16,194 nucleotides of DNA from Pseudolabrys sp. (GTDB lineage Bacteria; Pseudomonadota; Alphaproteobacteria; Rhizobiales; Xanthobacteraceae): contig JAFAQJ010000168.1 of NCBI GenBank assembly GCA_019246455.1, positions 1 through 16,194 on the forward strand, in the 5' to 3' direction. Numbering within the stretch: position 1 is the stretch's first letter; each line of letters opens with the position of its first letter. Made by a program: the position numbers and the translations under genes. A model generated the notes under the pieces. The model ran no database searches and was not told the origin of the DNA. It worked only from the letters and a program-made list of their open reading frames with translations. Shown piece after piece: positions 2,970-14,162 of the stretch.

Positions 2970-3959
2970 CTAGAGTTTGAAGCTTTCGTGCGTTCCGGGA
3001 TGAAATAATTCCTCGATTTTCACCAACCGTGACGACAGCCCCTGGCTGTGGTGATGACGCAAGAAGGTCTCAAGCGTCTTGCGGTTGCCTTCCATGCCAT
3101 AAGACCAGAAATCGTGGCCCATCAACTGACGCGCTTCCGCCAGGCGCTCCTCGATAAAAGGCAACGTGACCTTGGTGGACGATGTGTCTGAAAGCTTGTC
3201 GAGCGCGATGATTTTGGCGCGCTCGAACGCCTTGAGCACGGCACCCGGCAGCCACGGATGTTGCTCGGCCAAAGTCTTGCGCACGCCGACAATATGCATG
3301 ACCGGGAAGATACCGGTGCGCTTGTAATAGTCTTTGGCCGCGGCAACTGGATCGGCGAACAGCCAGCCGATATGCGGGTGGCCCCGCTCGAACGGCGACG
3401 GCACGCGCGGGCCGATGAACCCATCGATCTCCCCCGCCTCGAGCATGCTCGAAAGCGTGCGACCCTCCGGCGCGTTATCGAGCCGAACATCTTTAGGCAA
3501 AATGATCGAAATCTTTTCGACCCGGCCGGCCTCCTCCAGACCGCCTCTGATCCAGTGAATGTCGCTCGGCTTGACGCCGTGATCGTCCTCGAGAATAGCG
3601 CGTGCCCAGACATTCGCGGTGAGTTGATATTCCGGGACGCCGATTTTCTTGCCCTTCAAATCGGCCGGTTTCTTGATGCGGTCCGTGCGAACATAGATCG
3701 AGGTGTGACGGAAGGCGCGCGACACGAAAGCGGGCACGCCAACATAGGGGCAGGTGCCCTGCGCTGTCTTGACTGTAAAACTCGACAGTGACAACTCGCA
3801 GATGTCGAACTCGGCCTGCCGGAACGCGCGGAAAAAAATTTCCTCCGGATCGAGCGCCATGAAGACGGGATCGACACCATCGATTTGCACGATGCCGTCG
3901 CTGAGCGGACGGGTGCGATCATAATCGCGCACCGCGATTGATAAATTAAGTTTCGCCAT
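2970..3959 (-). CDS. 4,5-dihydroxyphthalate decarboxylase-like protein (PBP fold)
   Basis: A 329-residue protein closely matching the Pht5-like 4,5-dihydroxyphthalate decarboxylase family, which has a periplasmic-binding-protein fold. The recognised signature runs from residue 1 on: YDRTRPLSDGIVQIDGV, PEEIFFRAFRQAEFDICELS, FRHTSIYVRTD, KIGVPEYQLTANVWARAI and HWIRGG. The ATG at 3959 follows GGGA at about -11. There is no signal peptide, fitting a cytoplasmic enzyme rather than a transporter component. Authentic Pht5 decarboxylates 4,5-dihydroxyphthalate to protocatechuate, but many genomic paralogues annotated this way are untested, and no other phthalate gene is visible here. It heads a two-gene unit with the ModA-like protein. 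Family assignment is firm; the reaction is uncertain. Confidence 0.85.
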   Translation of the reverse strand: MAKLNLSIAVRDYDRTRPLSDGIVQIDGVDPVFMALDPEEIFFRAFRQAEFDICELSLSSFTVKTAQGTCPYVGVPAFVSRAFRHTSIYVRTDRIKKPADLKGKKIGVPEYQLTANVWARAILEDDHGVKPSDIHWIRGGLEEAGRVEKISIILPKDVRLDNAPEGRTLSSMLEAGEIDGFIGPRVPSPFERGHPHIGWLFADPVAAAKDYYKRTGIFPVMHIVGVRKTLAEQHPWLPGAVLKAFERAKIIALDKLSDTSSTKVTLPFIEERLAEARQLMGHDFWSYGMEGNRKTLETFLRHHHSQGLSSRLVKIEELFHPGTHESFKL

Positions 3960-4030: not shown

Positions 4031-4690
4031 CTACTGCGCCGCTGCGCCTTTATCCTCCGGCGTTACGTCAACCGCGCGGGCGCGGCCTGTGATCGTCACC
4101 GGCCCGCGGCAGTTGTCCATACAAGGCCTCTTGTTCCAGAAAGCCTTTTCTGTCGTCTCGCGATCGTCGTCGTAAAAGCCGTTCGCGTTTGGCATCTTTA
4201 CTTGCTCCCAGGTTTCTTTCGACAGCACGAACTTGTCGTCGACGATATCGTTGAGATTGAGCACGTAGGCTACGACCGCATAGAGCTCGTCATTGTTAAG
4301 CGCCTGCGCATCGCCGAACGGCATGGCGCGGCGCACGTAGTCGAACAGGCTCGACAGACGCGCCCAATAAGAGCCGACGGTCCTGACTGGGTCGTTCGAA
4401 GCCAGCGTGCCTTTGCCCTGCGCGAGCTGCGGCCAGCGGCCGGCGCTCTCGCCGAATTCGCCGTGACACGCGGCGCAGCGCGTCATGTAAATTTCTTCGC
4501 CTTGCTTGACCGAGCCTTTGCCCGGCGGCGCGCCCTGCCCATCAGGGCGCACGTCGATGTCCCAGCCGGCGATCTGCTCGGCGGTCGCCATTTGACCGAT
4601 GCCGAGCTTTTTCGGTGCATTCTTGCTTTGGGCAAAAGTCGATGCCGCGAGTAGCAGCACGGCGCAGATCGCACTAACCAACCTCGACAT
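4031..4690 (-). CDS. soxD: SoxD, cytochrome c subunit of sulfane dehydrogenase SoxCD (monoheme)
   Basis: Periplasmic cytochrome c partner of SoxC, 219 residues. The ATG at 4690 has GGAGAGG 6 bases upstream and lies inside the end of soxC (17-bp overlap), so translation is coupled; the much longer upstream open frame is only soxC in another frame. A Sec signal (LVSAICAVLLLAASTFAQ) is followed by a class I cytochrome c domain: haem motif CAACH (C72, C75, H76) and a likely axial methionine at M123 (RAMPFG). The C-terminal part has a cysteine pair C190/C194 (PCMDNC) then RGPVTITGRA. The diheme SoxD of Paracoccus is much longer; this one keeps only the first haem domain. It accepts electrons from oxidation of SoxY-bound sulfane sulfur. 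Confidence 0.93.
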   Translation of the reverse strand: MSRLVSAICAVLLLAASTFAQSKNAPKKLGIGQMATAEQIAGWDIDVRPDGQGAPPGKGSVKQGEEIYMTRCAACHGEFGESAGRWPQLAQGKGTLASNDPVRTVGSYWARLSSLFDYVRRAMPFGDAQALNNDELYAVVAYVLNLNDIVDDKFVLSKETWEQVKMPNANGFYDDDRETTEKAFWNKRPCMDNCRGPVTITGRARAVDVTPEDKGAAAQ

Positions 4691-5939
4691 TCTCAACCTC
4701 TCCGTCGGGCTTGAGATGCCAGGTTTGGATGCCGTTGTTGTGATAGATCGAATTAACGCCGCGAATCTTGCGTAGATCGTCTTTGTTCGGCTGCACATAA
4801 CCGGTTTCGTCGATCGCGCGCGATTGCAGCAGCAGTGCCTCGCCGCTCCAATCGAACTCGTAGTAAAAACGCACGCAGGCTTTGTCGTAGACCGGGCCGT
4901 CGATCCTCGCTGTGCGCCAGTTGCGGCCGCCGTCGAGTGCGACATCGACCCGCACGACCTTGCCGCGGCCCGACCAGGCAAGTCCCGAAATCACAGTCAA
5001 GCCTTTCGACTTTGCCGGCGCCTGCGGCGAGGGCGATGTGATGATCGACTTCGCATCCATCACCCAAGTGAACTGACGCGCTTTGCCGTTCTCCATCAAG
5101 TCGGTGTATTTCGAGGTCTCTTCGCGCGTGAACCACGGCTGATCGCCAACCTTGAGGCGACGCAGCCATTTGATCCACATGTTGCCCTGCCAGCCCGGCA
5201 CGACCAGCCGCGCCGGATAACCGTTTTCCGGCCGTAGCATTTCACCGTTCATGCGGTAGGCGATGAGACAATCGTCGAGCGCCTTCGCCAGCGGGATCGA
5301 GCGGTTCATCGCGGCGGCATCTCCGCCTTCGGCCATGATCCATTTCGCGCCGCTCTTGAGTCCTGCCTCGTTGAGTAGCGTCTTGAGGGGCACGCCTGTG
5401 TACTGCACGCAATGCACCATGCCATGCGTGTACTGACAGCCATTGAGCTGCGCACCGCGCCATTCCATTCCGGAATTGGCAGCACATTCGAGGAAATAGA
5501 TTCTATTGGCGCGTGGAAAGCGCTTGAGCTCGTCGAGCGTGAAGATCAGCGGCTTGTCGACCATGCCGTGAATCATCAGCCGGTAGTCAGCCGGATCAAT
5601 TTCAGCGATGCCAGAGTGGTGACGCTCGAAACACAGGCCATTGGGCGTGATGATGCCGTCAAGCTCATGCAGTGGCGTGAAGCTGACTGATGACTCCGGC
5701 GTCGCGGTCAGCCAGGGCACCGTGCGCCGGATCACCTGCTTCTCGAATTTCGATGGCGTGCCGTAGGCACGAACGCCGACGCCGTCGCCCAGCGTGCGCG
5801 TCCATTCCGGCACGTTGGGTGGTTGGTTCTTGGGATTATCAGCAATTGCTTTGCCGGAGGCCCCTGCCACGACAAGGCCCGCAGCACCCACAACGAACTT
5901 GCGGCGCGAGGTCGATCCCTGGTCGGGCGGCTGGCTCAT
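4674..5939 (-). CDS. soxC: SoxC, molybdopterin sulfane dehydrogenase subunit
   Basis: Molybdenum-cofactor subunit of SoxCD, 421 residues, sulfite-oxidase family. It removes electrons from the sulfane sulfur on SoxY in the periplasm. The ATG at 5939 has GGGAGA about 6 bases upstream. The N-terminus carries a Tat signal (SRRKFVVGAAGLVVAGASG, residues 11-29), as expected for a cofactor folded before export. The SoxC mark LCFERHHSGIAEIDP (102-116) is followed by the cofactor cysteine C152 in FLECAANSG, then AGLKSGAKWIMAEG and VVPGWQGNMWIKWLRRL; the C-terminal dimerisation domain contains ISGLAWSGRGKV. Its end overlaps the soxD start. The 65-bp gap after soxB holds a promoter-like sequence with a perfect inverted repeat. 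Confidence 0.96.
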   Translation of the reverse strand: MSQPPDQGSTSRRKFVVGAAGLVVAGASGKAIADNPKNQPPNVPEWTRTLGDGVGVRAYGTPSKFEKQVIRRTVPWLTATPESSVSFTPLHELDGIITPNGLCFERHHSGIAEIDPADYRLMIHGMVDKPLIFTLDELKRFPRANRIYFLECAANSGMEWRGAQLNGCQYTHGMVHCVQYTGVPLKTLLNEAGLKSGAKWIMAEGGDAAAMNRSIPLAKALDDCLIAYRMNGEMLRPENGYPARLVVPGWQGNMWIKWLRRLKVGDQPWFTREETSKYTDLMENGKARQFTWVMDAKSIITSPSPQAPAKSKGLTVISGLAWSGRGKVVRVDVALDGGRNWRTARIDGPVYDKACVRFYYEFDWSGEALLLQSRAIDETGYVQPNKDDLRKIRGVNSIYHNNGIQTWHLKPDGEVENVEVG

Positions 5940-6004: not shown

Positions 6005-7693
6005 CTAGAGGCCGGAGATTTTCACAGCACTGTTGGGTTGAACGTGGACGGTTTTTTCGCGCGCGATGTAACGCTCGACCAACTCCCAAACCGGCGGACC
6101 TTCCGTGCCTTCGTTGACACTGGCCCAGCCCGCCACGACGTATTCTTTCTTCGGATCGATCGGCGCACCGGTCTTGAGATGCGTCATTGCCGCGATCCGT
6201 GACCCGATCGGTTTGTTGATATCGATCGAGTAACCCAACCCGCCGCAGCGAACCATATCGCCGCCCTGCTGATAATATGGGTCGGGATTGAACAGATTGT
6301 CGGCGACGTCTTCGAGCACGTCCTTGAGACGTTCGCCGCTCATCGCGATACGGTAAACCTGCGGATAGGTAATCGCGGTCGCGTTGTGAATGTCTTCGAT
6401 CGTGATCGCTTGCCCTGGCAGAACACTGGTGCCCCAACGGAAACCGGGCGACAGTGCGATTTCGGCATCGCGTTCCTTGAGAAGCGCCGCGCAGATGAGA
6501 TCGTCAAACGTGCCGCTGAAATTGCCCCGCCGGTAGAGCAGCGAGTCCGTTTGGCCGACGACACGTGACAGCTGCGTTGCGTAGGGCGCGCGAGCCTTGG
6601 CGATCGCCGCGGCCATTTCCGGATCGGCAGCGATGGCGTCGGCGAGCAATGGAATAAGCTTGTAGCGGAAGTCCCTCACTTCGCCGCCACGTACGTCGAG
6701 GTCGAGTCGCGAGATGAACTTGCCGTGGCTGCCCGAGGCGACCAGCAGCGTCTTGCCGACCTTGACCACCTCCGGCAGTGCGTCGTGGGTGTGGCTCGTC
6801 AGGATGACGTCGATGCCGCCGACGCGCGAGGCGAGCTTGCGATCGACGTCAAAGCCGTTGTGGGACAGCAGAACGACCAGTTGCGCACCGGCCTTGCGCA
6901 CCTTTTCGACTTGTGCGCGCGCATCGTCTTCGCGGATGCCGAACGACCATTTCGGCATCATCCAGCGCGGATTAGCGACCGGTGTATAGGGAAAGGCCTG
7001 GCCGAGCACGGCGATCTTGATGCCGCCCTTCTCGAACATCTTATACGCATCGAATGCCGGCTCATTCCATTCCGTGTCGCGGATGTTGAGCGCGAGAAAC
7101 GGAAAATCGAGGCTGTCGATCAATTCCGTGACGCGGGCTTGGCCCAGCGTGAACTCCCAGTGCCCGGTCATCGCATCGGGCTTGAGCCATTTCATGCAGT
7201 CGGCCATGTCCTGACCGCGGCTCGCGTTCGCGCCGAGCGAGCCCTGCCAGGTGTCGCCGCCGTCGAGCAGCAGAACCTTGTCGTCGCCGCGCTCGGCGCG
7301 CACCGTTTTTGCCACCGTCGCCGCGCGATCAAGCCCGCCGATCTTGCCGTAGGATTTCGCTAGCGCCTCGAATTCCTCGAACGTCAATGCGTAAGCATCC
7401 GCGGACTTTTCTGGAATGCCGAACCGTTTGAGGAAATCGGTGCCGGTAAGGTGCGGGGGCTGGCCGCGCGCCTCGCCGACGCCGAGATTGATCGATGGTT
7501 CTCGAAAATAAATAGGTACCAACTGGCCGTGAATGTCGGCGACGTGCAGCAGCGTCACCGTCCCGACCGCCTCGAATTTCAGAAGTTCGGCCTGCGTCAG
7601 CCTCTGCTGCGCCAAGGCGCGCGTGAACGGCGAGCTACCGAGCAGTGCGGCCGTCGCGGCGCCAATCTGAAGGACGTCGCGACGGTTGAGCAT
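6005..7693 (-). CDS. soxB: SoxB, dimanganese thiosulfohydrolase
   Basis: Periplasmic hydrolase that releases sulfate from the SoxY-bound thiosulfonate, 562 residues, the usual family length. The ATG at 7693 shares its A with the TGA of the upstream soxXA gene (TGATG), indicating translational coupling; the open frame further upstream is soxXA read out of frame. The N-terminus is a Tat signal (NRRDVLQIGAATAALLG, residues 3-19). The metallophosphatase metal ligands are all visible: D53 and H55 (VADIHGQ), D147 (GGDTWQG), the SoxB-typical GHWEF replacing GNHEF at 177-181, H278 (LLSHNG), and H301/H303 (TSHTHD). The C-terminal 5'-nucleotidase-like domain contains the substrate-side GGDMVRCGGLGY segment. 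No damage seen. Confidence 0.97.
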   Translation of the reverse strand: MLNRRDVLQIGAATAALLGSSPFTRALAQQRLTQAELLKFEAVGTVTLLHVADIHGQLVPIYFREPSINLGVGEARGQPPHLTGTDFLKRFGIPEKSADAYALTFEEFEALAKSYGKIGGLDRAATVAKTVRAERGDDKVLLLDGGDTWQGSLGANASRGQDMADCMKWLKPDAMTGHWEFTLGQARVTELIDSLDFPFLALNIRDTEWNEPAFDAYKMFEKGGIKIAVLGQAFPYTPVANPRWMMPKWSFGIREDDARAQVEKVRKAGAQLVVLLSHNGFDVDRKLASRVGGIDVILTSHTHDALPEVVKVGKTLLVASGSHGKFISRLDLDVRGGEVRDFRYKLIPLLADAIAADPEMAAAIAKARAPYATQLSRVVGQTDSLLYRRGNFSGTFDDLICAALLKERDAEIALSPGFRWGTSVLPGQAITIEDIHNATAITYPQVYRIAMSGERLKDVLEDVADNLFNPDPYYQQGGDMVRCGGLGYSIDINKPIGSRIAAMTHLKTGAPIDPKKEYVVAGWASVNEGTEGPPVWELVERYIAREKTVHVQPNSAVKISGL

Positions 7694-8937
7694 CAGTGCC
7701 GGATGCCGGGGACGCTGAGCTTTTGACCCGCGTTCGTCGAGGCGAGATAAAGCTCGAGATCGCCGTATTCTTTGGCGTCGGGCGGCAGTTCGTCGGCGCG
7801 GATATTGACCTGGCACCATTGGAAGCGCTGCCGGATATCCCAAATCGCCTGCAGACTGGTGCGCCAGGTCGGAAAATGGTCGTACTGACCCTTCGGCTCA
7901 CCGAGCCACTGGCCGCGAATCCAATGATTGGCGGCTTTGCCGTGACAATCCGTGCAGGCAAAGTTGAGTTCGCCGACCTTGCGGTTCGCCAGTTCCTTGC
8001 CGCGCTCGATCGCGGCCTTGGCCGGCGCGCTCGTGGTGTCCACCCTGACCGGATTGCCGTTGGCGAGGAAGTGCAGATAGACCGACATCGCGCGGTTCTC
8101 ATCGGTCTCCATGAGCCAATCTGCGCCCGTCGTCGCCTTGGCGTGTCGTGTCACAAACTCCTCGACGCCGACCACCTTGTTGAGCCGCGGCTCCCATTTC
8201 GGCATCGATGCGGCCCAGGTCTTGAAAGCCGTCGCAGCATTCGTGTGGCAGTTCTGGCACGATTTGCCGGCCGGCCCATTCGCCTTCCACAAATCCTGCG
8301 CCTTTTCGACTGCCCACATCCCGGGATTTTCCATCGGGTCGAGATTTTCGCGTTTCTCGACCGGCGCTGGACGCTTCTCCGGATTATCGAGCGCGGTCTT
8401 GAACACGGCCGGCTTCTTCAGCGTTTTGAGGAACGCCACCATGTCCTTGATCTCTTCGTCATTGAAGAGACCGTGGCCGCCCCATGGCGGCATCACTGTC
8501 TCGGGATTGTAGACGCGCGCGTCGTAGATGTAGTTGAACAGCCACTCATCCTCGCGGCCGGCATTGCCGATCTCGGAGAGATCAGGACCGACGTTGCCGG
8601 GAAGATCGGCGTTCCCGGCTTGCCCCATCACGTGACAGGCGAGGCACGAGCCGCCGCGATTGCGGTCCGCGACGAGTTTGGCGCCCTTTTCCGCATCACC
8701 GGTGATCGGGCCATCGAGCTTGCGCGGCGTCTTCGGCGTCGGTAGCGACACGACCTTGCCGAGCGTGCTGAATTTGGATTCGTCCCGGGCCGGCCAACCG
8801 TTGTAGCGTTTCCATGGCCGCGCCGACGCATCAGCCTTCAATTCGAGCGGCGCCTCTTTTTTGCTCTGCGCGTAAACGCCCGCGGTCATCGTGACCGTCG
8901 CGGCCAAAACGCCTAAAGCCAGTATCCTTCCGCGCAT
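7693..8937 (-). CDS. soxXA: Fused SoxX-SoxA triheme cytochrome c
   Basis: A 414-residue exported cytochrome joining SoxX and SoxA, normally separate proteins. SoxXA oxidatively couples thiosulfate to SoxY. The start at 8937 has GGAGGG 6-7 bases upstream; an in-frame ATG at 8955 is less well placed. After a Sec signal (1-23, ending VYAQ) comes a SoxX-like domain (~75-180): haem CLACH (98-102), the DLPGNVGPDL block and axial-Met region NPETVMPPWG (M149). A proline/charged linker (~180-205) leads to SoxA: haem CQNCH (227-231), haem CTDCH (328-332) and the ligand cysteine C375 in QRFQWCQVNIRA, the residue that is a persulfide ligand in known SoxA. The gene lies 52 bp after soxZ and overlaps soxB by one base. 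No separate soxX is visible. Confidence 0.93.
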   Translation of the reverse strand: MRGRILALGVLAATVTMTAGVYAQSKKEAPLELKADASARPWKRYNGWPARDESKFSTLGKVVSLPTPKTPRKLDGPITGDAEKGAKLVADRNRGGSCLACHVMGQAGNADLPGNVGPDLSEIGNAGREDEWLFNYIYDARVYNPETVMPPWGGHGLFNDEEIKDMVAFLKTLKKPAVFKTALDNPEKRPAPVEKRENLDPMENPGMWAVEKAQDLWKANGPAGKSCQNCHTNAATAFKTWAASMPKWEPRLNKVVGVEEFVTRHAKATTGADWLMETDENRAMSVYLHFLANGNPVRVDTTSAPAKAAIERGKELANRKVGELNFACTDCHGKAANHWIRGQWLGEPKGQYDHFPTWRTSLQAIWDIRQRFQWCQVNIRADELPPDAKEYGDLELYLASTNAGQKLSVPGIRH

Positions 8938-8989: not shown

Positions 8990-9313
8990 TCAAGCCACGG
9001 TGATCTGTTCTTCCGCGGTCGTGACCGTGCCGTCGTCATCGGTCCAGGTGAACTTGAAGGTGCCGCTCTGTTCGACCCTGGCGTTGAACTGCACGTAGGG
9101 GTTCGCTGCCACCGCCGGTGCGATGTCGGCGCTGAACACCGGCTTGCCGTTGAATTCGCAAGTGAACTTGTTGATGATCTTGCGAGGAATCGTCTTGCCG
9201 TCTTTGTCCTTGCGCTGACCCGATTCCATGATGTGCGAGATCAGAGTCTTGATCTGAATGACCTCGCCCTTCTTGGCTTCCTTCGGAAGCTTGATGCGCG
9301 GCTTCTCCGCCAT
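8990..9313 (-). CDS. soxZ: SoxZ, sulfur-carrier scaffold subunit
   Basis: Partner of SoxY in the SoxYZ sulfur carrier, 107 residues, usual length. Family marks are PRIKLPKEAKKGEVIQIKTL at the N-terminus, SHIMESGQRKD, IPRKIINKFTCEFNGK and a C-terminal immunoglobulin-like strand set ending FTWTDDDG. No signal peptide is present, as is normal: SoxZ travels through the Tat system bound to SoxY, which carries the signal. It starts 21 bp after the soxY stop with a purine-rich GGGAGA upstream of the ATG. The intercistronic hairpin follows its stop. Confidence 0.96.
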   Translation of the reverse strand: MAEKPRIKLPKEAKKGEVIQIKTLISHIMESGQRKDKDGKTIPRKIINKFTCEFNGKPVFSADIAPAVAANPYVQFNARVEQSGTFKFTWTDDDGTVTTAEEQITVA

Positions 9314-9334: not shown

Positions 9335-9790
9335 TTAGCCGCCGCAGCCGCCGATCGTGACTTTCACGAGCTTCTGGTCGGTGAAGAGTTGGCCGCCGCT
9401 GGTCTTGGCGACGACGATGATGTTTTGCGTGGTGGCGAGACGAATGCGAGTCGCGGCCTCCGCTTTGCCCGACATCGGCGTGAAATGGAACGTCGCGACT
9501 TCGGGCCGCGGATTGCCGTCGGCGATCACCATGATGTCGCTGACGTAGTTGTCGGCCGTCATCGGCGCGTCGACCGAGACCGATAGCGGCACCGTATTGC
9601 CGTTTTCGGCGATCTCCGGGAGCTCGATGGTGATCTTGCCTTTGTCCGGCGCCTTGCCGCCGGTGAACTTGGTAATCTCGTCAGCCGCCTCCTTGGCCGC
9701 GGCAAAGGCCTGGCCGCTCCAGCCGATCACCGAAATCGTGACCAGCCCTGCACCCACAGTGAGCGCCTGCCGACGCGACAAATTCTGCAT
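9335..9790 (-). CDS. soxY: SoxY, thiosulfate/sulfur-binding carrier protein
   Basis: Covalent sulfur carrier of the Sox pathway, 151 residues. The ATG at 9790 is supported by GGGGGA 7 bases upstream and by the position of the signal peptide; an in-frame extension to 9847 would run through the promoter. The Tat signal (SRRQALTVGAGLVTISVIG, residues 5-23) is followed by the mature domain with PEIAENGNTVPLSVSVDAPM and FTPMSGKAEAATRIRLA. The protein ends in the hallmark GGCGG arm; C149 carries the substrate between SoxXA, SoxB and SoxCD. It is the first gene of the core sox block, 110 bp after the soxW-like gene, with its own promoter. Confidence 0.97.
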   Translation of the reverse strand: MQNLSRRQALTVGAGLVTISVIGWSGQAFAAAKEAADEITKFTGGKAPDKGKITIELPEIAENGNTVPLSVSVDAPMTADNYVSDIMVIADGNPRPEVATFHFTPMSGKAEAATRIRLATTQNIIVVAKTSGGQLFTDQKLVKVTIGGCGG

Positions 9791-9819
9791 CGCAAATCCC
9801 CCGGACGAATGGTGGGCGC

Positions 9820-9900: not shown

Positions 9901-10473
9901 TCAGCTCGGCAGCGATTTGAGAAAATCGCGAAAGCTCTTGCCCTCGTAGGCTTTCTCGCGAACGAAGCGGAACATCGCGCGGAAATCGTCAGGCCGCATA
10001 TAGCCCGGCGCCCGCGCCACCTCGCGCTCCGCCGGCGGCAATGCCTTGAGGCCATCGGCGCTTTCGCGGAAGAACTGGAAGGTCGGCGTGAACCGCACGC
10101 CATATTTGAGCGCAAGCTCTTTTTCGCCAAGCTCCTGACCGTCAAAATCGGTCACTTTGCGCGAGCCGATGATGTTGAGTTGCAGCACCTCGAAGTTCGC
10201 GCGGATGTAATCGGTGACGCGCGGCTGCGCGAAATTGACGAAATGCGTTTCCTTGCAATAGGGGCAACCTTTGAGCTCCCACATGATTGCGAAACGCTTA
10301 TTTTGCTTGCGCGCCCCATCGAGGTCTTCGGCGAGATCGAGGAAGCTTTCGAGAAACCACGGCTCCTTGTAGAGCCCGTCGTCAGTCAGGACCGGCTCGG
10401 CGCGGGTGACGCCGCCCGCAAGCGCCGAAGCGCCGACCGCCAAATTGCCGATCAGGAATTGCCGCCGATCCAT
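9901..10473 (-). CDS. soxW: SoxW-like periplasmic thioredoxin
   Basis: Thioredoxin-fold thiol oxidoreductase, 190 residues, exported. The redox motif GCPYC (C70, C73) follows FAIMWELK, and the cis-proline loop is RFTPTFQFF (P130). The N-terminus DRRQFLIGNLAVGASALAGG resembles a Tat signal rather than a plain Sec one, matching its SoxY, SoxB and SoxC partners. The ATG at 10473 has GAGGGCGG close upstream. Its position at the head of the sox genes and family resemblance point to SoxW, thought to help keep Sox proteins reduced in the periplasm; a general TlpA/DsbC-like reductase is the alternative. It is separated from soxY by 110 bp containing a promoter, so it may be transcribed partly apart. 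Confidence 0.8.
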   Translation of the reverse strand: MDRRQFLIGNLAVGASALAGGVTRAEPVLTDDGLYKEPWFLESFLDLAEDLDGARKQNKRFAIMWELKGCPYCKETHFVNFAQPRVTDYIRANFEVLQLNIIGSRKVTDFDGQELGEKELALKYGVRFTPTFQFFRESADGLKALPPAEREVARAPGYMRPDDFRAMFRFVREKAYEGKSFRDFLKSLPS

Positions 10474-10542: not shown

Positions 10543-11268
10543 GTGAAGCGCATGCTGGCCTGCCTTGCGCGTATCGCATTTCTCACGGCGTTGGTGGCCG
10601 CACCCGTTAACGCCGCTGAAATCGACGATTTCAACGTAGCGATCGAACAAGTGGCCTCGCACAACCGCGTCGCGATCGGCTATCTGCGCACCGGCAATGT
10701 CGATCTCGCTTCGCTCGAAATCGACCGCCTGCGCGATGCCTGGGCCGAAGCGGTGTCGCGATTCGGGAGGCCGTTCGGCCCCTTCGCCGAGAACAAGCAG
10801 CTTTACACAACGACGATGCTCGACGTCAGCGTGCGCATTGTCACCGCGCAAATCATGTCGGGGAGCGGCCGGCCCGACAATGCGCGTGACGCATTGGCTG
10901 CCATCCGCAACGAATTATCCGACCTACGCAAGAAAGCCGGCGTGCCGGTGCTTGCCGATTGCATTCGCGACAGCAACGACGCCATGGACAAGCTCTTTGC
11001 GTTTAACGACAGCGATCTCGATTGGTCGAAGTCGACAGATGAGGTTAGCGCCAGCGCAAGAGCTTATGGTGCGACGCTCGAGCGATGCGACGCAATGGCC
11101 GATACCGCCACGCAACAGAGTCCGGAATTCCGCCGTCTGATCGACGGCGCCAAAGCCAGTCTCAGCCTGATCCCGGAGACGATTGCCGCGCGCGACACCG
11201 GGCGGCTGCACCGAATCCTGATCGAACTGCGCTCGTTCGATAACCTTCTGGCATTCCGTTTTGGCTAG
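10543..11268 (+). CDS. Exported helical protein of unknown function, divergent from soxW
   Basis: I do not recognise this family. The 241-residue product has a clear Sec signal (positively charged MKRMLACLAR, then IAFLTALVAAPVNA, cut near residue 24) and a ~216-residue mature part that looks almost wholly alpha-helical. There are two cysteines in the mature part, C140 (LADCIRDSN) and C182 (LERCDAMAD), which could form a disulfide. No CxxCH haem motif, lipobox or further membrane segment is present. The pattern recalls a helical-bundle periplasmic protein. The start is GTG 10543 or, three codons later, ATG 10552. Codon use matches its neighbours. It diverges from soxW over 69 bp and is followed by ggt-soxS-soxR on the same strand, so a role in periplasmic sulfur or redox metabolism is a reasonable guess, no more. 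Confidence 0.75.
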   Translation: MKRMLACLARIAFLTALVAAPVNAAEIDDFNVAIEQVASHNRVAIGYLRTGNVDLASLEIDRLRDAWAEAVSRFGRPFGPFAENKQLYTTTMLDVSVRIVTAQIMSGSGRPDNARDALAAIRNELSDLRKKAGVPVLADCIRDSNDAMDKLFAFNDSDLDWSKSTDEVSASARAYGATLERCDAMADTATQQSPEFRRLIDGAKASLSLIPETIAARDTGRLHRILIELRSFDNLLAFRFG

Positions 11269-11552: not shown

Positions 11553-13361
11553 ATGCCCGCCCCCGTCATCAATCCAAATTCCTTCACCACCCGTCCTGAA
11601 ATCGAAGGCACTTTCGGCGTGGTCGCGACGACCCACTGGATTGCGACCGCGATCGGGATGAGCATTCTCGAAAAAGGCGGCAACGCCTTCGATGCCGGCG
11701 CCGCCTCCGCTTTTTGCCTTCAGGTCGTCGAGCCGCATCTCAACGGACCAGGCGGCGACGTTCCGGTCATCGTCCATGCGGTCAAGCGCGGCAAGACCGA
11801 GATCATCTGCGGCCAGGGCCCGGCGCCGGCCGGCGCGACCATCGCCCACTACAGGTCGCTCGGTCTCGACATTGTGCCAGGCACCGGTCTTCTCGCCGCC
11901 TGCGTTCCCGGCATGTTCGATAGCTGGATGTTGCTGCTGCGCGACTACGGCACCCTGAAGCTCACCGACGTCCTGGCGCCTGCGATCTTTTATGCACGCA
12001 ACGGCCACCCGCTCGTCGAGCGAGCTAACGCCACGATCGGCATGGTCAAGGATCTGTTTCGCGATCATTGGCCGACCTCGGCCGCGATTTATTTACCGAA
12101 TGGCCAGGTGCCTGAAACCGGATCAATGTTCACCAACAGGACGCTCGCCAACACCTACGAGCGCGTCTTGAAGGAAGCGGAAAGCGTTGGTGGCGACCGC
12201 ATCGCGCAAATCGAAAAGGCCCGCAAAGTCTGGTCGCAAGGTTTTGTCGCCGAAGCGATCGACAAGTTCTGCCGCACGCAAAAAGTGATGGACGTCACCG
12301 GCGAGAAACATGGTGGCGTTCTCACCGGCCAGGACATGGCGAAATGGGAAGCAACCGTCGAAGCGCCGCTGACGTATCAGTATGGCCACTACACAGTGCA
12401 GAAGGCCGGTATCTGGTCGCAGGGACCGGTGTTGCTCCAGCAGCTCGCGCTGCTCAAAGGCTTCGAGCTCGAGGGTCTCGATCCGGCAGGTCCCGAATTC
12501 ATCCATCTGCAAGTCGAGGCAGCAAAGCTGGCCTTTGCCGATCGCGAGAAATTCTACGGCGATCCGAAATTCTCCAAGATTCCGACCGAAACCTTGTTGT
12601 CGGACGCGTATAATGCCGAGCGCCGCAAGCTGATCACGGCAAAAGCTTCGCTCGACTTGCGGCCGGGCTCGATCGAAGGTTTCGGCGGCGTCGTGCAGAT
12701 GCGCAAGGACGATGGCCCGCGCCTGGCGGTCGCAGCGTCAGGAGCCGGTGAACCGACCGTGGGCCGGATGGGGGCCGTGCGGGGCGATACGGTCCATTTC
12801 GACATCATCGATCGCGACGGCAATATGATTTCATCAACGCCGTCAGGCGGTTGGCTGCAGTCCTCGCCGGTCATTCCGGAAATCGGCTTTTGCCTCGGCA
12901 CCCGCGCCCAGATGTTTTGGCTCGACGAAAACCATCCGGCTGCGCTCGTGCCGGGTAAGCGCCCGCGCACGACGTTGTCGCCGACAATGGCGCTGCGCGA
13001 CGGCGAGCCGTATCTCGCCTGGGGCTCGCCCGGCGGGGATCAGCAGGATCAATGGATCGCGCAATTCTTCCTGCGCCACGTTCATTGCAATCTCAATTTG
13101 CAGGAAGCAATCGACGCGCCGGCCTGGCATTCGGAGCATTTCCCGATCTCGTTCTGGCCGCGCACGGCGCGCCCCGGCGTCCTCGTCGTCGAAGGCCGCG
13201 TTCCGGAGGCGACGGTGAAGGAATTGCGCAAACGCGGGCACGAAGTCGAGGTCGGTCCGGACTGGTCGGAAGGCCGCCTCACCGCCGCATCACGCACCGG
13301 CGTGCGGCGTCGCGCCGCGGCCAATCCTCGTGGCATGCAGGGCTACGCCACCGGGCGATGA
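11553..13361 (+). CDS. Gamma-glutamyltransferase family protein (Ntn hydrolase)
   Basis: 602-residue member of the gamma-glutamyltranspeptidase family, which self-cleaves and hydrolyses or transfers gamma-glutamyl groups from glutathione or related amides. The ATG at 11553 has AAGGA 6 bases upstream. Family marks are the N-terminal VATTHWIATAIGMSILEKGG, NAFDAGAASAFCLQVVEP, LNGPGGD, PGMFDSWMLLL and YGTLKLTDVLAPAI. The predicted nucleophile is T413 (GDTVHFDIIDRDGN), which would become the N-terminus of the small subunit, followed by STPSGGW, GKRPRTTLSPTM and GSPGGDQQDQW. No signal peptide is seen, so it should be cytoplasmic, like YwrD-type members, not the periplasmic glutathione enzyme. Its stop overlaps the soxS-like start. 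The substrate is unknown; acylases of this fold are an alternative. Confidence 0.88.
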   Translation: MPAPVINPNSFTTRPEIEGTFGVVATTHWIATAIGMSILEKGGNAFDAGAASAFCLQVVEPHLNGPGGDVPVIVHAVKRGKTEIICGQGPAPAGATIAHYRSLGLDIVPGTGLLAACVPGMFDSWMLLLRDYGTLKLTDVLAPAIFYARNGHPLVERANATIGMVKDLFRDHWPTSAAIYLPNGQVPETGSMFTNRTLANTYERVLKEAESVGGDRIAQIEKARKVWSQGFVAEAIDKFCRTQKVMDVTGEKHGGVLTGQDMAKWEATVEAPLTYQYGHYTVQKAGIWSQGPVLLQQLALLKGFELEGLDPAGPEFIHLQVEAAKLAFADREKFYGDPKFSKIPTETLLSDAYNAERRKLITAKASLDLRPGSIEGFGGVVQMRKDDGPRLAVAASGAGEPTVGRMGAVRGDTVHFDIIDRDGNMISSTPSGGWLQSSPVIPEIGFCLGTRAQMFWLDENHPAALVPGKRPRTTLSPTMALRDGEPYLAWGSPGGDQQDQWIAQFFLRHVHCNLNLQEAIDAPAWHSEHFPISFWPRTARPGVLVVEGRVPEATVKELRKRGHEVEVGPDWSEGRLTAASRTGVRRRAAANPRGMQGYATGR

Positions 13362-13774
13362 TGCGCACAGCGTCGAAAATTATTCTCGCGATTGTTACCG
13401 CCGTGCCAATTTTTTCTACGGCGTCCGCCGCCGAACTCGTGATGTTCGAGCAAGCGGGCTGTGAATGGTGCGCACGTTTCGACCAAGAAATCGCGCCGAT
13501 CTATCCGAAAACCGCCGAAGGCCAGCGCGCGCCTTTGCGTCGCGTCAATATGGACGAGCCTTTCCCGCCCGATCTGGCATTTATTCAGGTCGAACGACTG
13601 ACGCCGCTGTTCGTGATGATCGATAACGGACGCGAAATCGGCCGCATCCGCGGCTATCCCGGCGACGACAGCTTCTGGGGCCTGCTCGGTGTTCTGATCC
13701 GCAAGCTCGATGACGGCGCTGCGCGGGGAGAACTGCATGACCTCGTCCCAAGGCCATTGCACGTAAACGGCTGA
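13358..13774 (+). CDS. soxS: SoxS-like periplasmic thioredoxin
   Basis: Small exported thiol-disulfide protein, 138 residues, resembling SoxS, which in Paracoccus reactivates SoxYZ by reducing it. A Sec signal (MMRTASKIILAIVTAVPIF, cut after TASA near residue 24) leads straight into a thioredoxin fold with redox motif GCEWC (C35, C38), the RVNMDEP strand and cis-proline P83 (RLTPLFVM), then GYPGDDSFWGLLG. The start is one of two adjacent ATGs; the first (13358) overlaps the ggt stop as ATGA, the second (13361) as TGATG. No good ribosome binding site is seen, so translation is likely coupled to ggt. soxR follows after 40 bp. CcdA/SoxV, the usual electron donor, is not in the window. Confidence 0.85.
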   Translation: MMRTASKIILAIVTAVPIFSTASAAELVMFEQAGCEWCARFDQEIAPIYPKTAEGQRAPLRRVNMDEPFPPDLAFIQVERLTPLFVMIDNGREIGRIRGYPGDDSFWGLLGVLIRKLDDGAARGELHDLVPRPLHVNG

Positions 13775-13814: not shown

Positions 13815-14162
13815 ATGAGTATGGATCTGCAAGTTCTGGAATTCTCGAGCTCTCGCGAACTCGATCGCATGGTCGAAAATGCGCAGCGCGCGACCAATTT
13901 CCTGAAAGCTCTGTCGCACGAGAGCCGGCTGATGATCCTTTGCATCCTGGCTGAGGGCGAGAAGTCGGTTAGCGAACTCGAAAAACTGCTAGCGCTGCGT
14001 CAGCCGACCGTCTCACAACAACTGGCGCGGTTGCGTGCCGACAAGCTTGTTTCGACAAGGCGCGACGGCAAGACGGTCTATTACAGCCTCGCCAGCGAAG
14101 ATGCGCGCGTGATCATCGGCGCGATCTACAACGTGTTCTGCAAAAAGACGCGTAAGAAATAG
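13815..14162 (+). CDS. soxR: SoxR-type ArsR-family repressor (persulfide-sensor cysteine pair)
   Basis: ArsR/SmtB-family winged-helix repressor, 115 residues. It begins with the dimer helix RMVENAQRATNFLKALSHESRLMIL; the helix-turn-helix is KSVSELEKLLALRQPTVSQQ with recognition helix QPTVSQQLARLRADKLV, then the wing TRRDGKTVYYSLAS. Cysteines C43 (LMILCIL) and C109 (NVFCKK) are 66 residues apart, the arrangement used by SqrR, BigR and SoxR to sense persulfide by forming a polysulfide bridge; metal-site cysteines of ArsR/SmtB are absent. Location beside soxS and opposite the sox operon supports SoxR. The likely start is ATG 13815; ATG 13821 is possible. The two inverted repeats near soxC and soxY are candidate targets. 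Its end is 7 bp from the convergent monooxygenase. Confidence 0.9.
   Translation: MSMDLQVLEFSSSRELDRMVENAQRATNFLKALSHESRLMILCILAEGEKSVSELEKLLALRQPTVSQQLARLRADKLVSTRRDGKTVYYSLASEDARVIIGAIYNVFCKKTRKK

Follow-up and report, generated by a model that had tools for sequence, protein, structure and literature searches.

Introduction

Haem 1 of SoxA is present in type 1 SoxAX cytochromes and absent from types 2 and 3, and its job is a puzzle. In type 1 SoxAX (Rhodovulum sulfidophilum, 1h31/1h32; Paracoccus pantotrophus, 2c1d) SoxX and a diheme SoxA are two chains, whereas type 2 (Starkeya, 3oa8) and type 3 (with SoxK) have a monoheme, likewise unfused SoxA. One-chain forms have also been described: in thiosulfate-using Halorhodospira, of the Halorhodospiraceae, SoxX is fused to the N-terminus of SoxA and the product is called triheme (PMC8877833), and Beggiatoaceae carry a SoxX-SoxA fusion with no individual soxX, which is credited to the 2013 SoxAX review of Kappler and Maher (PMC11172852). 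For Beggiatoa leptomitoformis soxAX is given with one accession and one primer pair (PMC11507549). A 'soxXA', possibly but not certainly a single gene, is also named for Hyphomicrobium denitrificans (PMC11582611). Here we describe soxXA, a gene for a one-chain SoxXA on the minus strand of a 16,194-nucleotide stretch of Pseudolabrys sp. DNA (assembly GCA_019246455.1, contig JAFAQJ010000168.1), hereafter the window. A preliminary description of this DNA had implied that the fusion itself is unusual; since the fusion as such is in print for both families named above, it is not the news here. The fused architecture is already known, and what the locus adds is a probable ligand swap at haem 1 and the exchange of the XA module between sox clusters.

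Results and discussion

Domain architecture of SoxXA

On its plus strand the interval 7693-8937 has internal stops, while its minus strand is open for 414 amino acids. The features of the gene are:

7693..8937, minus strand: soxXA, fused triheme cytochrome of 414 amino acids (NCBIfam models TIGR04485 and TIGR04484 over their curated cut-offs; AlphaFold2 model)
8419..8655, minus strand: SoxX domain core with haem C98-H102 and Met149 (TIGR04485, 81.8 bits at these bases)
7696..8325, minus strand: SoxA domain, residues 205-414 (bases derived from residue numbers)

A signal-peptide-like N-terminus is followed by the SoxX domain (residues ~76-180), a linker (~180-195) and the SoxA domain (~195-414). 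Searched against the protein, the SoxX model TIGR04485 gives 79.8 bits (cut-off 61, residues 95-173) and the SoxA model TIGR04484 gives 166.7 bits (cut-off 110, residues 205-413). The haem motif of the SoxX part is C98-C101-H102, with His102 and Met149 forming the haem site; the SoxA part holds haem 1 at C227/C230/H231, a second haem at C328/C331/H332 and the active-site Cys375, and the seven cysteines of the protein are the six in the haem motifs plus Cys375. The AlphaFold2 model matches both the SoxA and the SoxX chains of solved SoxAX complexes, with weak fold matches to TsdA, a thiosulfate dehydrogenase that makes tetrathionate and has no SoxX domain. This confirms that 7693-8937 encodes a single chain in which SoxX precedes a diheme SoxA. 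The preliminary description, which gave no strand, had the coordinates, length and residue numbers right, and its SoxX and diheme SoxA identities and triheme count are borne out by the domain search and the structure prediction that it had proposed, the two accessions being the fitting ones. Its view of the C-terminal half as an ordinary full diheme SoxA holds for the two haems and Cys375 and fails at haem 1, where the expected cysteine is replaced by His265.

Conservation was followed in alignment A1 (95 fused proteins, the window's own included) and in a larger set of 252 non-redundant fused and 83 unfused rows, drawn from the genome-survey loci plus the best 120 of 1910 and the best 120 of 1893 proteins after dropping exact duplicates and open reading frames (ORFs) scoring below 60 bits to the SoxA domain. 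The haem sites, Met149 and Cys375 are invariant in A1, and the haem motifs, Met149 and Cys375 are also kept in 252/252 fused rows, which include Pseudolabrys sp. Root1462 (L023). In every fused row SoxX precedes SoxA and three haem motifs are present, and equivalents of the second SoxA haem motif and of Cys375 are found in all 252 fused and 83/83 unfused SoxA rows. SoxXA thus shares with type 1 SoxAX its fold, haem count (two motifs in the SoxA part), active-site cysteine and SoxX domain, and differs in being a single ORF rather than two chains and in having His265 in place of a cysteine; the SoxA of types 2 and 3 is only ~24-25% identical to the window's SoxA domain. Its neighbours soxYZ and soxB, each over its NCBIfam cut-off, link the gene to a sox system.

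The fused protein (P0001) has a single match in the genome it comes from, an assembly of 2.64 Mb in 465 contigs that is 85% complete, and there the fusion is the sole hit over the SoxX cut-off, in agreement with the earlier remark that no separate soxX is visible. One other site reaches 24.2 bits to the SoxX model at a loose E-value limit; at the same limit 7/14 control genomes give matches, none of them over the cut-off. We therefore reject a hidden second soxX in the available part of the genome. The fusion is likewise the sole SoxX match over the cut-off in five fused relatives that are 97-99% complete (G003, G004, G026, G032, G033).

Ligands of haem 1

A cysteine as distal ligand of haem 1 is characteristic of type 1 SoxAX; SoxXA has His265 there, which pairs with the cysteine of Rhodovulum SoxA. 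Across 335 aligned SoxA domains (the 252 fused and 83 unfused rows), column 265 is His in 249/252 fused rows, the exceptions L111, L112 and L113 having Cys, and Cys in 77/83 unfused rows (Ser in 3, Glu in 2, His in 1). Arg264-His265 is invariant in A1, with Arg264 kept in 249/252 fused rows, and between residues 200 and 300 His265 is the only His or Cys besides the haem-1 motif that is conserved in >90% of His-type rows. Because column 265 is His and the protein has no spare cysteine, haem 1 of SoxXA is probably bis-His, held by His231 and His265. We found no mention of a histidine at haem 1 of fused SoxXA in the text available to us, and the review of Kappler and Maher (2013) may already note it.

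It is unlikely, though worth serious thought, that His265 is not a ligand at all, haem 1 being absent, five-coordinate or bound by Met245. Met245 is conserved in 247/250 His-type rows, and 24/83 unfused SoxA do lack the full haem-1 motif; in these, however, column 265 is Cys in 24/24 and never His, while the haem-1 CxxCH is present in 252/252 fused rows. Among unfused SoxA that keep the motif, column 265 is Cys in 53/59. Met245 is disfavoured since its column varies where the cysteine is present (Tyr 60, Met 14, Phe 7, other 2 in the unfused rows).

Some unfused SoxA with a haem-1 motif have other residues in the ligand column: Ser in L058, L067 and L095, Glu in L062 and L077, and in L093 His, this protein being nested among Cys-type relatives.

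The linker

The fusion might be made as one chain and cut in the periplasm, leaving an ordinary SoxX/SoxA heterodimer, and the linker at residues ~180-195 would lie between the two products. We think this improbable. In the 252 fused rows the haem motif of SoxX and the haem-1 motif of SoxA are always 117-150 residues apart (median 129), P186 and R189 of the linker are invariant in the 95 A1 rows, and residues 181-200 have a mean predicted local distance difference test score (pLDDT) of ~89-92, which together suggest a structured and selected linker. If the chain stays uncut, the SoxX:SoxA ratio is fixed at 1:1.

Distribution and origins of the fusion

The preliminary description left open how widespread the fused form is. 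Among 36 genomes of the genus, the window's own included, 22 carry the fusion (21 at full length, and one, G035, cut by a contig end): it is the only SoxX over the cut-off in 16 and stands beside a separate SoxX in 6, while 10 genomes have only a separate SoxX and 4 have none. The relatives give 22 loci, 9 titled Pseudolabrys (including Root1462), 12 with other titles of Hyphomicrobiales/Rhizobiales type and 1 from a Thiomargarita metagenome-assembled genome (L022). In the class sample P0001 has matches at 1e-20 in 53/386 genomes and in the phylum sample in 41/397, the own genome counted in both, and the window's own is the only full-length match in either; in most of these genomes scoring was limited to the four best first-look candidates. 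The L022 protein, used as query, has matches at 1e-20 in 36/369 sampled genomes of the class of G605, and 7/369 hold a fused ORF (L107-L113). We take this class to be Gammaproteobacteria since in our quick tree L107 and L108 prove equal, in their SoxA domains, to P0129 (Thioflexithrix psekupsensis) and P0157 (Thiotrichaceae). Named fused relatives among the protein-database matches listed are Beggiatoa alba, B. leptomitoformis, Thioflexithrix, Ca. Parabeggiatoa and Thiomargarita. One genus genome, G031, has on contig 14 (L180) a second set with unfused soxY, soxZ and soxA and also carries the fusion. We found no literature on Pseudolabrys with soxA and thiosulfate.

The fused SoxAX of Beggiatoaceae resembles SoxXA in being one chain, SoxX then SoxA, with three haems and no separate soxX reported, and its rows P0128 (B. 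alba), P0137 (B. leptomitoformis) and P0176 (Ca. Parabeggiatoa) share both clade and His column with the window. Their surroundings differ: the Beggiatoaceae Sox system is described as lacking SoxCD (PMC11172852), whereas the window has soxC and a soxD-like gene, and the 10-13 kb read around the fused genes of L022 and G1133 (L182) hold no other recognisable sox gene. The Halorhodospira fusion also has SoxX at the N-terminus of a diheme SoxA (PMC8877833); compared by description, some of the Cys-type L111-L113, which have a separate origin and Cys at haem 1, may be of this kind.

In a careful SoxA tree of 61 of the 128 rows of the quick tree, 24 His-type fused rows form one clade (100/100) that spans Rhizobiales (Pseudolabrys) and Beggiatoaceae-like Gammaproteobacteria, while the Cys-type fused L112 and L113 group with the unfused L129 (100/100) and L111 stands apart. 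A single fusion event behind all SoxXA is very improbable: the shared domain order and three haem motifs of the 252 fused rows would fit it, but a tree constrained to unite the 27 fused rows is worse by 55.6 log units and is rejected (p = 0.0025 in the approximately unbiased (AU) test). On the given sampling and model SoxX and SoxA therefore fused at least twice, and the exact number of origins is left unsure by the long branches L110 and L111, which are poorly placed in both trees. In the quick tree Pseudolabrys and two other Rhizobiales loci fall in an 18-row set with L109 of G605's class (Shimodaira-Hasegawa approximate likelihood-ratio test, 96), while Pseudolabrys SoxB groups with SoxB of its own order and is 48-50% identical to the SoxB of G1133 and G1051. 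On the simplest reading soxXA alone would have crossed between the classes by horizontal transfer.

We reject as scarcely conceivable both an N-terminal domain that is some unrelated cytochrome c and a join created by misassembly or a frameshift: generic cytochrome c families also match this part, but the SoxX equivalog model is over its cut-off there, both domains and the three haem motifs recur in 252/252 fused rows (Root1462 among them), and 95/95 proteins of A1 match the SoxX and SoxA models at E <= 1e-10, so that the join is no product of chance or assembly.

Exchange of the XA module

The sox clusters of Pseudolabrys keep the gene set soxW-Y-Z-slot-B-C-D and differ in the content of the XA slot. 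It is occupied by the fusion in G000, G007 (up to the contig end), G021, G026, G031 and Astr-EGSB, and by soxX and soxA as two genes in G028, with G029 alike in its 1.5-kb flank. In G005, G015 and G020 soxZ and soxB are direct neighbours, and soxA/soxX sit between soxY and soxW on the opposite strand. The SoxA of these three forms a very long branch in the tree, and its Starkeya-type assignment rests on the match of G005 SoxA to PDB chain 3oa8_A (5.4e-86), which we take to be Starkeya SoxAX. SoxA of G028 groups with the unfused L106 and L122. Both G005 and G028 SoxA pass the SoxA cut-off, as G028 SoxX passes the SoxX cut-off. Beside the separate genes G028 has a small gene of ~104 amino acids (L172, 5182-5496, minus strand), tentatively SAXB/SoxK-like by its match to NF052674, the SoxAX-binding protein SAXB (E 3.4e-12, 46.8 bits, below the cut-off of 95). 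Kin of type 2 and type 3 SoxAX thus appear to fill or flank the XA slot in other Pseudolabrys clusters.

The edges of the exchanged segment are seen by comparing G026 (fused) with G028 (separate). In blastn one flank shows 84% identity and ends at the soxZ stop (L178:6149), the other shows 87% and starts at L178:7507, ~35 bases beyond the final matched codon of soxXA. Between these flanks 1,357 bases with the fusion face 1,880 with soxX, soxA and the 104-amino-acid gene, unaligned by blastn. Their SoxB proteins share 95% identity and form a sister pair (100/96). A 34-row SoxB tree requires 4 switches between the fused and the separate state, all of them forced by starred branches; a genome with both forms counts as fused, since the slot next to its soxB holds the fusion, and the tree excludes L200 (partial, G027), L167, L201, L202, L171 (distant SoxB type) and the rows of G605's class. 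Six of the ten separate-only genomes have main-type SoxB (G001, G005, G015, G020, G028, G029), G017 and G018 have the distant SoxB, and G016 and G025 have no SoxB at 1e-100, so only six of the ten bear on the exchange. The change counts are unrooted, and one gain of the fusion with later displacements is likeliest, as the outgroups have separate forms and most of the ingroup is fused. Together, gene order, flanks and SoxB tree show, at the level of sequence, an XA slot exchanged between otherwise alike sox clusters in Pseudolabrys, with three kinds of module.

These three SoxXA modules beside closely alike SoxB, SoxC and SoxD amount to natural swap experiments on SoxYZ recognition. For Starkeya a similar replacement of one SoxA type by another has been suggested (PMC4003848), and we found no mention of XA exchange in Pseudolabrys in the literature available to us.

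In G005, G015 and G020 (L173, L174, L175) SoxY and SoxZ are 59-67% identical to those of the window and SoxB 78-80%; the lower SoxYZ identity suggests that the change to a Starkeya-type SoxXA may have involved SoxYZ as well.

Mechanistic implications

The one-chain SoxXA would run the first, oxidative step of the Sox cycle. In the model for SoxA and TsdA an active-site cysteine takes up thiosulfate as S-thiosulfonate, and a rival, copper-based proposal is told in the same paper (PMC4423706). Following the SoxA/TsdA literature, Cys375 would take up thiosulfate as S-thiosulfonate and then pass it to the SoxY cysteine, and two electrons would leave through the covalently held SoxX haem, with no docking step. 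Judging by the column pattern, His231/His265 ligation in place of His/Cys would change the redox chemistry of haem 1, and a large natural clade with His for the haem-1 Cys is a ready test of whether haem 1 conducts electrons.

Taken as a whole, we hold with good confidence that the locus encodes a periplasmic one-chain SoxXA whose diheme SoxA probably has a bis-His haem 1, belonging to a His-type clade and forming a module that has been exchanged and has probably moved horizontally. Several points weigh against this. The bis-His ligation is read from alignment columns, the column-265 cysteine serving as distal ligand of haem 1 in solved SoxA. The 249 His rows are one clade of mostly near relatives and therefore count as one event, while three fused proteins keep Cys, so the fusion does not need His, and 6/59 unfused SoxA with haem 1 lack Cys in column 265 (3 Ser, 2 Glu, 1 His). 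The careful tree gives poor resolution along the backbone of the fused clade, so that transfer may have run in either direction. Finally, a Cys-to-His change at haem 1 of Campylobacter jejuni TsdA gave ~-100 mV against -185 mV for the wild type, which its authors regard as the same range (PMC6879331); it concerns the catalytic haem of a related enzyme and serves as an analogy only, and it speaks against a large haem-1 effect.

A bolder reading makes the His-type SoxXA a fourth, electrochemically distinct type of SoxAX, with a bis-His haem 1 taking part in electron transfer along three covalently wired haems, and the whole module acting as a plug-in that replaces types 2 and 3, and is replaced by them, in sox clusters that otherwise stay the same. 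It is weakened by the TsdA Cys-to-His value, which stays in the wild-type range, and we regard it as possible but rather doubtful.

The surrounding sox cluster

The genes soxW-Y-Z-XA-B-C-D in the window are a complete sox cluster, and the soxB ATG overlaps the soxXA stop (TGATG). Besides soxXA the features are:

4031..4690, minus strand: soxD-like c-type cytochrome, named by its position after soxC (PF00034, 40.8 bits, cut-off 21.3; no NCBIfam model over its cut-off)
4674..5939, minus strand: soxC (TIGR04555, 648.6 bits, cut-off 420)
6005..7693, minus strand: soxB (TIGR04486, 838.8 bits, cut-off 550)
8990..9313, minus strand: soxZ (TIGR04490, 116 bits, cut-off 76)
9335..9793, minus strand: soxY, ending in GGCGG (TIGR04488, 152.2 bits, cut-off 125)
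9901..10473, minus strand: soxW-like thioredoxin, kept in the clusters of relatives (PF13098, 66.3 bits, cut-off 27)
13815..14162, plus strand: ArsR-family regulator, SoxR-like by position (NF033788, 89 bits, cut-off 55; NF040642 BigR 108.5 bits, under its cut-off of 155)

A 241-amino-acid protein (10543-11268, plus strand) has no Pfam or NCBIfam match at 0.01; relatives also have it next to their sox clusters, at 34-55% identity. The ArsR-type regulator is adjoined by a second thioredoxin-like protein with a CxxC motif (13358-13774, plus strand). Near the cluster there are also NMT1/SsuA and SBP_bac_11 substrate-binding proteins and an ATP-binding cassette (ABC) permease, at 2970-3959 and 2212-2961 on the minus strand and at 385-1233 and 1252-2211 on the plus strand.

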